In this document: piece by piece, positions 20,944 through 24,002 of the stretch
How the letters are laid out: the number at the start of each line of letters is the position of its first letter
Numbering within the stretch: position 1 is the first letter of the stretch
Origin: Lewinellaceae bacterium
GTDB taxonomy: Bacteria > Bacteroidota > Bacteroidia > Chitinophagales > Saprospiraceae
Assembly (NCBI GenBank): GCA_029976695.1
Contig: JARQTN010000261.1
Location: 1 to 38,624, forward strand
Direction: 5' to 3'
Length of the DNA stretch: 38,624 bases
Program-made: the position numbers and the translations under genes
The notes under the pieces: model-generated
Told to the model about the DNA's origin: nothing
Seen by the model: the letters and a program-made list of their open reading frames with translations, nothing else
Databases searched by the model: none

Positions 20944-21480
20944 TTGGAAACAGCACACATCGTACAACAGTGCCTGCAAAATGACAAGCGTGCCCAAAAG
21001 GCGCTGTTTGAACTGTATGCCGGCAAGATGATGGCCCTGTGCAGGCGATACGCCCGTACACAGGAAGAGGCTGAGGATTTCCTGCAGGAAGGCTTTATCC
21101 GTTTGTTCCGTTACCTGGGCTCCTATGACGGAAAAGGTTCTTTTGACGGCTGGGTCCGCAGGATCTTTGTCAACACGGCAATACGTCATTACCACCGGCA
21201 GAAAAAACACAACCAGGTCAATGATTTCGAAGCCGAGCACCATGAACGGATACCACAGAATGCCATCAGCCAGCTCAGCGAACTGGAATTGATTTCACTC
21301 ATCAACCGGATGCCGGAAGGATACCGGCTCGTTTTCAACATGTATATCGTTGAAGGGTACAGTCACAGGGAGATCGGTGAGTTATTGGATATCGGTGAAA
21401 GCACATCAAGGTCACAACTGCTCAAAGCCAGGAAGTGGCTGCAGCATAAAATTCGGGAAAATCAAAAAGTGTTCCTATGA
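20944..21480 (+). CDS. ECF-type RNA polymerase sigma factor
   Basis: Alternative sigma factor of 178 aa directing RNA polymerase to a specific regulon. Region 2 spans ~22-90 (LFELYAGKMMALCRRYA, EAEDFLQEGFIRLFRYL, FDGWVRRIFVNTAIRHYHRQ). Region 4 spans ~118-172 (LISLINRMPEGYRLVFNMYIVEGYSHREIGELL; helix-turn-helix STSRSQLLKARKWL). The start is the TTG at 20944, preceding ETAHIVQQCLQNDKRAQKALF; no ATG fits, since the first in-frame ATGs fall inside region 2. Its stop overlaps the ATG of the next gene (ATGA at 21477-21480), so the two are translationally coupled. That partner has the layout of a membrane-spanning anti-sigma factor, so this sigma is probably held inactive at the envelope until a signal arrives (inference). 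Confidence 0.95.
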   Translation: METAHIVQQCLQNDKRAQKALFELYAGKMMALCRRYARTQEEAEDFLQEGFIRLFRYLGSYDGKGSFDGWVRRIFVNTAIRHYHRQKKHNQVNDFEAEHHERIPQNAISQLSELELISLINRMPEGYRLVFNMYIVEGYSHREIGELLDIGESTSRSQLLKARKWLQHKIRENQKVFL

Positions 21481-22910
21481 ATCAAAGAACGGACAAAATC
21501 ATCAGGAAAAAGCTTATGGATGCAGAGCAGGCCTACCCTGCCGGTTTGTGGGAACAGATTGCGCCGCAAATCCCGGATTATCCATCCGGAAAGGCCCAAC
21601 GATGGAGGCCTGTGTTGCTGTTCACAGCCCTGGGCCTATTCCTGGCTCTCGCCTTTTGGTTCGGTCAAAACGCTAAAGATCGCGGGGAAGTCTTCGACAC
21701 AAGTCAACAAGCTGCCGGCTTTGTGGTAAACGATCCGGGCACGCCTGCCATATCGGACAATGCCGGCAATGCTGGTGATGATCAGGAAATGAGCAAACCA
21801 GCCTTGATTTTAGCGGGTGAGGAACCAGAAAATCCAGAACTCAGCAGTCCGTCGGGCCCAAAAGTAAAAGCCGGTCAACCTGCCCTGGTACAACCTGTAA
21901 AAAAGTTCTCAAATCTCAAAGCTGATGCGGCCAACAAGCTGTCTCAGGCCCCGGCTTCCGAAGGAACAGCAGTGCATCCGGTCAGTTTAAAAGCGGATAC
22001 GCCGGCTAACCGAGATGCCTTGGAAGTGAAAGGCTTCAACCAATTTCAGGGTACAAACCGTACATCTGTGCGTTCCCCTGCCATCACCCAATTGAAGTCG
22101 GAATTTACCACTTCTCCATTCATGACATCAGACCGGCAGGATCTTGAAATTGATGGCATCGGCCCCGACCCGGACTGTTACTCATTCGGCAGGCGGCACC
22201 AGTCGAATTTTACCATTGATGTCTATACCGGATTGGGGATCGCCCTGCGCCCGATGGGCTCTGCCAACGAGGATGTAAGCAATTACATCGATGCGCGTCA
22301 GGAAACGGAAAGTTTCAAATACCTCTTCACTTTTGGCGGGCGCATCAATCTGATGATGAACAACGGGCTCGCATTCAGGGGAGGACTGCATTACACCCAG
22401 ATCGGGGAAAAGTTTGACTATACCGATACTTCTGCCGTACGGATCATCACGATTATCGACACGACATTTGTAGGCGGGGATACAATCGTCAACACCACAC
22501 AGGAGGTCCAGGAAGGCACAATCATTAAAAGGATCAACAACCGGTTCCACTCCATCGACATCCCTTTGCTGGTCGGCTATGACGTACCCCTTGGCAGGAT
22601 GCAGGCGAGCGTGAGTGCAGGACCTGTCCTCAATATCTCGGCATGGCAGCGGGGCCAGTTCCTGAGCCCTTCCCTTGAACCCGTATTCATCGAGACGGAT
22701 TCCCCGGATTATTATCCCGCTTACAAAACCAGCCTGGGCATCGGGGTATATCTAAGTGCGGCACTTGCCGTCCCCATTACGGAGAAAATGTGGCTTTTTG
22801 GCGAGCCATACATGCTCCACCGGTTTAACCCGGTCACCCTGGATGATTATTCCATCCGCCAGCAGAATACGAATATGGGATTAAATGTCGGCTTGAAGCT
22901 AAAGATCTGA
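21477..22910 (+). CDS. Putative dual-membrane-spanning anti-sigma factor: cytoplasmic N-terminus, TM helix, linker, outer-membrane beta-barrel
   Basis: 477-aa protein with an unusual layout. Residues 1-44 are a short helical cytoplasmic part (KIIRKKLMDAEQAYPAGLWEQI). Residues 45-63 form one transmembrane helix (PVLLFTALGLFLALAFWF). About 64-235 is a low-complexity Pro/Ala/Ser-rich linker. From ~240 (FTIDVYTGLGIALRP) to the end is an OMP beta-barrel with alternating strands (GLAFRGGLHYTQIGEKFDY, RFHSIDIPLLVGYDV, NTNMGLNVGLKLKI). There is no cleavable signal peptide at the N-terminus. This matches the Dma proteins described in Bacteroides thetaiotaomicron, anti-sigma factors that span both membranes and are paired with a sigma factor. 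The ATGA overlap with the ECF gene supports that pairing. A plain barrel with an uncleaved signal anchor is the alternative. A strong hairpin follows the stop. Confidence 0.85.
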   Translation: MNQRTDKIIRKKLMDAEQAYPAGLWEQIAPQIPDYPSGKAQRWRPVLLFTALGLFLALAFWFGQNAKDRGEVFDTSQQAAGFVVNDPGTPAISDNAGNAGDDQEMSKPALILAGEEPENPELSSPSGPKVKAGQPALVQPVKKFSNLKADAANKLSQAPASEGTAVHPVSLKADTPANRDALEVKGFNQFQGTNRTSVRSPAITQLKSEFTTSPFMTSDRQDLEIDGIGPDPDCYSFGRRHQSNFTIDVYTGLGIALRPMGSANEDVSNYIDARQETESFKYLFTFGGRINLMMNNGLAFRGGLHYTQIGEKFDYTDTSAVRIITIIDTTFVGGDTIVNTTQEVQEGTIIKRINNRFHSIDIPLLVGYDVPLGRMQASVSAGPVLNISAWQRGQFLSPSLEPVFIETDSPDYYPAYKTSLGIGVYLSAALAVPITEKMWLFGEPYMLHRFNPVTLDDYSIRQQNTNMGLNVGLKLKI

Positions 22911-22954
22911 TTAAAAAGGTGACCCGGGCAGCATCGGTTGCCGTACCCGGGTCA
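22911..22954. terminator. Strong hairpin between the barrel and lipoprotein genes
   Basis: TGACCCGGG (22920-22928) pairs perfectly with CCCGGGTCA (22946-22954). A smaller inner stem may form in the 17-nt loop. On the plus strand only a weak ATCCTTT tract follows; on the minus strand a TTTTT tract follows (the AAAAA at 22913-22917), but no minus gene ends here. It may partially terminate or attenuate transcription into the lipoprotein gene. Confidence 0.5.
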
Positions 22955-22997
22955 ATCCTTTCGATAATAGTTTGCACACGTAAAATACATGTTTCAC

Positions 22998-24002
22998 ATG
23001 AAAAGATCCATTTTTCTTTTTCTCCTCGCACTGGCTGCAGCATTCATTTTTGATGCCTGCCAGAAGGATGTCGACGAGTTCATCCCGAACCCCGTAGAAG
23101 AACCCGAAGTGCCAATCGGTGATATCGGTAATTTTTTCAAAGCCCTGGAGGGTGATTTTGACACGAGTCATGACCTGCCCTGCCAATCCTTTTCCGAGCT
23201 GGTCATCCTGCCGTCCGGCACGATCATCGAAGTGCGGGCCGACCAGTTTGAGTTGCCAGTTGATATTGACTGCAATGCCAATAACGGGCGCCCCCTCAAA
23301 ATGACCGTCACAGAGATTGATTCCAAAGGGGAGATCATCATGGGCGGCAAACAGACCGTGTCCAATGGCCGCCTCCTCGAATCCCGGGCGGAATACCGCA
23401 TCGAAGTGACCTATGGAGGAAAACCTGTTCGTCTGAAGGCAGGAAAGCAGCTGCGCATTCTCGTGGAGGATGATAATCCCGTACAGCAAATGGAGCTTTT
23501 CTACGGAGGGCAGGATGCCAACGGATTCAACTGGGAGCAGGCCGATGGTGATGACAATACCTGGGATGGTGCGCGCCCCTCCGAATGGGCATTCCAGGAC
23601 TCGACAAATACGCTGTTTGGCTTCGGCTATGAATGCTTCAGTGACAGCCTGAACTGGATCAACGTCGACATCTTCAAGGATGTCCCGGAGGACCAGAAAA
23701 CGACCGCATGCGTCGAATTGCCAGAAATCTTCACCAACACCAACACCGCCGCGTTTCTCGTCTTTGATGACTTCAACGGGGTTGTCGGCATGGTGGGAGA
23801 TTCAGCCACCATGCAGTTTTGCGAACCCTACGGCCTGGTCCCGATCGGGTTCAATGTCACCTTCATCGTGATCTCCGAGCAGGGAGAGGATAACTACTAT
23901 TTTGGTATGGCATCGGCAGTGATCGAGGAAAACCACGTTGAATACATCCAACCACAAATGATGTCTCTGGATGCCATCAAAGACATCCTGATGGGGCTAT
24001 GA
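22998..24002 (+). CDS. Putative lipoprotein of unknown function downstream of the sigma/barrel pair
   Basis: Exported protein of about 334 aa that I do not recognise. The N-terminus is a signal sequence (KRSIFLFLLALAAAFIF) ending at a cysteine in FDACQKD; the -2 Asp makes the lipobox atypical, so lipidation is likely but not sure. The mature part is acidic, probably beta-rich (VRADQFELPVDIDCN, GGKPVRLKAGKQLRILVE, AFLVFDDFNGVVGM), and holds several cysteines (in LPCQSF, DIDCNA, YECFS, TACVE, QFCEP) that could form disulfides. The start is either the ATG at 22989 or, with a more typical n-region, 22998. It lies 78-87 bp after the barrel gene on the same strand with a hairpin between. It may belong to the sigma regulon, by position only. 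Confidence 0.85.
   Translation: MKRSIFLFLLALAAAFIFDACQKDVDEFIPNPVEEPEVPIGDIGNFFKALEGDFDTSHDLPCQSFSELVILPSGTIIEVRADQFELPVDIDCNANNGRPLKMTVTEIDSKGEIIMGGKQTVSNGRLLESRAEYRIEVTYGGKPVRLKAGKQLRILVEDDNPVQQMELFYGGQDANGFNWEQADGDDNTWDGARPSEWAFQDSTNTLFGFGYECFSDSLNWINVDIFKDVPEDQKTTACVELPEIFTNTNTAAFLVFDDFNGVVGMVGDSATMQFCEPYGLVPIGFNVTFIVISEQGEDNYYFGMASAVIEENHVEYIQPQMMSLDAIKDILMGL

Follow-up and report, generated by a model that had tools for sequence, protein, structure and literature searches.

A probable Dma/Reo-type sigma/anti-sigma pair in a Lewinellaceae bacterium, with signs of a wider distribution of its kind in Bacteroidota

Two overlapping genes of a Lewinellaceae bacterium very probably encode a sigma/anti-sigma pair of the Dma kind (Das/Dma, EcfO-Reo), in which the cytoplasmic end of an outer-membrane barrel protein would tether an ECF sigma factor to the inner membrane. 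They lie in a stretch of DNA of 38,624 nucleotides (contig JARQTN010000261.1), the whole of which is referred to here as the window. The Dma kind is already known from Bacteroides, and the window pair is an ordinary-sized member of this known but young kind. New here are the prediction of a contact between Arg163 (R163) of the sigma factor and Asp6 (D6) of the barrel protein, and the spread of such pairs through the phylum. The features discussed are listed in Table 1.

Table 1. Positions of the genes, predicted protein segments and residues of interest in the window
Feature	Position	Strand	Remarks
ECF sigma factor gene	20944..21480	+	TTG start; 178 aa; regions 2 and 4
Codon of sigma R163 (region 4.2)	21430..21432	+	predicted partner of D6; aligns with E. 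coli RpoE R178
Probable Dma/Reo-type anti-sigma factor gene	21477..22910	+	477 aa; ATG at 21477
Predicted cytoplasmic anti-sigma domain, residues 1-42	21477..21602	+	two short helices; motif D..FR.KL...E...P..LW..I
Codon of anti-sigma D6	21492..21494	+	covaries with sigma R163
Predicted single transmembrane helix, residues 43-68	21603..21680	+	hydrophobic core 46-62
Predicted disordered periplasmic tether, residues 69-243	21681..22205	+	pLDDT under 50
Predicted C-terminal outer-membrane beta-barrel, residues 244-477	22206..22907	+	AlphaFold2, Foldseek, Pfam OMP_b-brl_2
Strong hairpin in the gap between the barrel and lipoprotein genes	22920..22954	+	9-bp perfect inverted repeat TGACCCGGG/CCCGGGTCA; folding energy z -2.6
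337-aa lipoprotein-like gene	22989..24002	+	completes a three-gene unit in near relatives

The product of the first gene is matched by Pfam Sigma70_r2 (5e-16) and Sigma70_r4_2 (6e-14), and its TTG start is aligned with GTG and TTG starts at homologous loci. The start codon of the second gene lies inside the end of the first, the two sharing the four bases ATGA. The initial annotation had reported this overlap and had described the second product as a short N-terminus followed by a helix at residues 45-63, a linker of about 170 residues and a beta-barrel. The coordinates bear out the former, and an AlphaFold2 model based on an alignment of 28 homologues matches the latter closely. Two N-terminal helices are predicted at residues 3-14 and 24-31, ahead of the membrane helix. 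The disordered stretch comprises about 173 residues, with pLDDT below 50 at residues 69-231 and 233-240 (about 31-45 over 69-240), and is followed by barrel strands spanning residues 244-476, for which the block pLDDT is about 88-98. In Foldseek the model resembles outer-membrane barrels, OmpA, NspA and OmpW amongst them, with E values from about 1e-6 to 1e-5, and in Pfam the protein matches OMP_b-brl_2 at 2e-6, barely above the cut-off. In the 28 homologues the tether has a length of 126-262 residues (median 175.5). It is therefore long enough, when extended, for a periplasm of about 25 nm, a distance that corresponds to about 70 extended residues at 0.36 nm each.

This arrangement of an N-terminal anti-sigma domain, one transmembrane helix, a long disordered tether and a C-terminal barrel is that of the Dma proteins, which adjoin an ECF21 sigma factor (PMC13088901). 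The comparison with Bacteroides was made on B. faecis MAJ27, a sister species of B. thetaiotaomicron, and likens its proteins to Dma1 and Dma2 taken together. A profile of the N-terminal domain, built without Bacteroides sequences, found as its two best matches in B. faecis proteins of 350 and 419 residues (E 1e-11 and 9e-10); both have the Dma layout and each is encoded after an ECF sigma gene. Two further loci of the same genome, L138 (558 codons) and L139 (552 codons), encode sigma-transmembrane-barrel fusions, which is the published layout of Dma3. When the window sigma factor was compared with the 49 sigma-region matches in B. faecis, the four best were exactly the four that are coupled to barrels, with E values of 1e-32, 9e-27, 1e-25 and 1e-20; the next stood at 3e-13. 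In a tree of 62 sigma factors the window sequence, the family sigmas sampled across the phylum and the four barrel-coupled B. faecis sigmas form one clade (100/99), apart from the other sampled sigmas of the window's genome and of B. faecis. Judged by these best matches and by this clade, the cognate sigma of the window protein is of the ECF21/Das type. The profile, the sigma matches, the tree and the architecture thus all agree with the earlier proposal that the pair is a divergent member of the Dma kind.

The degree of divergence can be seen by comparison with the individual systems. Dma1/Das1 and Dma2/Das2 of B. thetaiotaomicron share with the window a sigma gene beside a gene for an anti-sigma domain, transmembrane helix, tether and barrel (PMC13088901), and, as judged on the sister species B. 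faecis, a homologous sigma factor and N-terminus. The identity of the sigmas is, however, only 34-35%, and the N-terminal domain is reached by the profile only. The Dma3-type fusions resemble the window pair in a sigma domain of the same clade and in carrying a barrel on one chain, but they lack a separate anti-sigma domain, whereas the window has two genes. EcfO-Reo of B. fragilis and Phocaeicola vulgatus is likened to the window pair by description: its anti-sigma factor is described as spanning five compartments (PMC9308784, PMC13114119).

A contact between the N-terminus and the sigma factor had been set beforehand as a check on the proposed pairing, and residue covariation now points to one. 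Mean-field direct coupling was applied to 123 sigma/anti-sigma pairs. At each of four pseudocounts sigma R163 and anti-sigma D6 head the list of 7832 inter-protein pairs (z about 12), and the score of 3.07 exceeds both the maximum of 15 random shuffles (1.35) and every within-sigma coupling at an equal setting. The taxa were also split into two disjoint sets: amongst order-level relatives the pair ranks first, and in the remainder of the phylum it is either first or third. Exchanging the N-termini of near neighbours, a control that preserves most of the relatedness, sends it down to ranks 28-4068. The letters at the two positions are mostly R-D (67) and K-E (23), with 13 R-E and five K-D. Independent contrasts of R/K and D/E on the best tree gave eight the same and one opposite in the commonest pairing (p about 0.04), a weak result with too few contrasts on well supported branches.

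Sigma R163 aligns with Arg178 of E. coli RpoE. Analysis of more than ten thousand class I pairs has identified RpoE R178-RseA D11 as the contact that helix 1 makes on the -35 side of sigma region 4; the D11H mutation abolishes the activity of RseA (PMC7406223). Since R163 covaries with D6 and corresponds to the partner of RseA D11, the short N-terminus most likely binds region 4 of the sigma factor in the manner of classical anti-sigma factors. Couplings of Ile9 (I9) with sigma I170 and F131 are weaker and not above the shuffles, and those of Ile28 (I28) with sigma residues 42, 48 and 52 in region 2 rank high but fall below the shuffled maximum; both would fit a dual interface.

A fused sigma/anti-sigma chain was also folded. 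Here the homologous locus L024 was used, in which the two genes are in frame and separated by 21 bases; the frames of the window genes bar read-through. The model has a pLDDT of 85.6 (70-80 in the anti-sigma part) and a pTM of 0.44, a docked complex is not confirmed, and the VIA and Foldseek matches concern the sigma part only. The structures matched by the sigma domain include CnrH in its complex with CnrY, the matched chain being the sigma factor and not CnrY. CnrY is itself a short two-site anti-sigma factor with a short membrane-anchored cytoplasmic end, as in the window protein, but it has no barrel. The likeness to RseA consists in an acidic helix-1 residue paired with an arginine equivalent to RpoE R178 in region 4. 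The window protein differs in having two short helices within 42 residues rather than four, a periplasmic part made up of tether and barrel, and an N-terminal domain whose profile has no match amongst solved anti-sigma chains.

The pairing of the two genes is conserved. Homologues were picked by similarity to the barrel or to the N-terminus, and the sigma gene was never a criterion. An ECF sigma gene is directly upstream in all 28 full-length relatives, with the ATGA overlap in most. Two wider searches gave 59 of 59 loci, a set that partly repeats the 28 relatives, and a sigma gene was also found upstream at 59 of 60 further homologous loci. The sole exception is L167 (G023:C91:4500-7300), where the search used found none. 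A density of 26 sigma genes in 4.12 Mb would put less than 1% of genes within 1 kb of one by chance; the observed adjacency is more than chance. Six matches of the N-terminal profile lie in the window's own genome, every one beside a sigma match, and seven sigmas of the clade were found there (the window sigma and those at L098, L099, L100, L102, L209 and L215). Two loci of this genome, L099 (G000:C199) and L102 (G000:C144), encode short homologues of 123 and 181 residues that carry the N-terminal motif and the helix and have no barrel; each adjoins a clade sigma gene. The motif given in Table 1 is common to the homologous N-termini. No Pfam model, anti-sigma families included, matched them, and the NCBIfam model NF052375 (`anti-sigma factor') gave a weak match in 13 of 50 members.

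Taken with work on the Bacteroides systems, these observations suggest the following model. In the resting state the sigma factor would be kept at the inner membrane by the 42 cytoplasmic residues of the barrel protein. D6 and I9 of helix 1 would rest against R163 and I170 in the final helix of sigma region 4, the face that reads the -35 element, with helix 2 probably touching region 2.1/2.2. After a single passage of the inner membrane the chain would extend across the periplasm as the disordered tether and finish as an outer-membrane barrel. Disturbance of the outer membrane, or loss or failed assembly of the barrel in it, would free the sigma factor, which would then transcribe its targets, probably including its own pair and the adjacent lipoprotein gene. 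We infer binding and inhibition of the sigma factor from the covariation and from Bacteroides and Phocaeicola, in which loss of the anti-sigma factor activates the sigma factor and a lipoprotein regulon (PMC9308784, PMC13114119, PMC13088901). Vesiculation, too, is switched on when a Dma protein is lost. A surface or barrel-stress signal, as first suggested for the window, would be in line with the analogy to EcfO-Reo, which responds to agents causing outer-membrane damage or blocking BamA (PMC9308784).

The lipoprotein-like gene behind the pair bears on both the output and the signal. Of the 68 loci with sufficient sequence, 16 have a relative of it directly behind the pair, and almost all of these 16 belong to the nearest relatives of the window pair, in which the three genes form a unit. 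Its family (about 300-345 residues) is found in this position in the window and at L010, L013, L016, L017, L020, L023, L025, L028, L029, L038, L070, L071, L072, L074 and L075. The window protein has no family in Pfam or NCBIfam. In B. faecis a lipoprotein gene likewise comes after one of the two pairs; its 187-residue product shows no significant similarity to the 337-residue protein of the window. The EcfO regulon includes lipoproteins, in P. vulgatus those of the NigD type (PMC9308784, PMC13114119), but the window lipoprotein has no NigD match in Pfam. Given its position behind the pair in the relatives, the B. faecis example and the presence of NigD in the EcfO regulon, it is plausible that the lipoprotein is an output or a partner of the pair. 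A hairpin with a weak T tract, a candidate terminator or processing site, stands ahead of the gene, which may therefore have an expression level of its own. A scan for sigma-70 promoters gave nothing above shuffled sequences.

The signal could also be of a different nature. A surface ligand, or a partner such as this lipoprotein, might grip the barrel and release the sigma factor by pulling or by a conformational change, rather than by proteolysis after failed assembly. The adjacency of the lipoprotein gene, which is largely confined to loci of the window type, speaks for such a signal, as does the proposal that Dma2 senses a glycan (PMC13088901). Against it stand the induction of EcfO-Reo by envelope damage and the nature of the tether, since a long disordered segment passes on little conformational change. 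We regard this alternative as possible but on balance unlikely, and prefer envelope disturbance as the signal.

The model also depends on a single chain spanning both membranes. The helix might instead belong to a signal peptide that has a long cytoplasmic n-region and is cleaved, in which case the cut N-terminal stub alone would regulate the sigma factor and the barrel would be a separate outer-membrane protein. The window protein does have Ala-Leu-Ala at residues 57-59, after about 11 hydrophobic residues, but amongst 126 homologues an A-x-A motif occurs near the end of the helix in only six; looser small-x-small motifs, present after the helix in 108 of the 126, are uninformative. Cleavage is accordingly unlikely for the family, to judge from these sequences, and possible for the window protein. 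The same homologues have 45 residues ahead of the helix (5th-95th percentile 38-52), an unusual length for the n-region of a signal peptide, and the uncharged stretch has a median of 21 residues, as in membrane anchors. The cytoplasmic flank of the helix is the more positive side in 114 of the 126. The sigma-transmembrane-barrel fusions of B. faecis, each in a single frame, and the published treatment of Dma and Reo as continuous bridges also argue against cleavage. We consider a separate stub and barrel improbable and infer one uncleaved chain.

That the barrel protein is merely an outer-membrane target co-transcribed with the sigma gene, and not a regulator, fits with the recognition of the barrel alone by the curated Pfam and NCBIfam cut-offs, but is very hard to reconcile with the covariation of the N-terminus and sigma region 4, the barrel-less homologues beside clade sigmas in the same genome and the published activation of the sigma factor upon loss of the anti-sigma factor, and we give it almost no weight.

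The published work found on the Dma kind covers Bacteroides and Phocaeicola, in keeping with the remark in the initial annotation that little is known of such systems outside Bacteroides; the family is nevertheless abundant in other Bacteroidota genomes. The N-terminal module has 12 matches in genome G016, ten in G004 and nine in each of G014, G020 and G023, which suggests that relatives hold large families of such pairs. There are thus signs in the sequences that the kind is phylum-wide and diversified in Bacteroidota rather than a speciality of Bacteroides. On present evidence it is a common link between envelope and transcription in the phylum. In most anti-sigma factors the sensing part is a periplasmic domain or a receptor that sits separately in the outer membrane, whereas in the Dma kind the receptor and the sigma-binding part are on one chain. 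The N-terminal profile provides a means of finding such unannotated domains, and R163/D6 is a named residue pair open to charge-swap tests in every member, the Bacteroides proteins included. A more speculative picture would be a minimal two-helix anti-sigma module found throughout Bacteroidota, which uses the salt bridge of RseA and is wired to outer-membrane barrels, in many copies per genome and with two to five tandem modules on one barrel holding several sigmas, the barrel being gated by a dedicated lipoprotein in the window's branch. Taken as a whole we consider this picture rather doubtful.

Tandem copies of the N-terminal sigma-binding motif precede the transmembrane helix at L074 (G440), L064 (G003), L035 (G006), L175 and L168. 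There are four copies in L074, with a period of 28 residues within an anti-sigma part of residues 1-130, about five in L064 and two in L035. Such homologues could possibly hold several sigma molecules per barrel.
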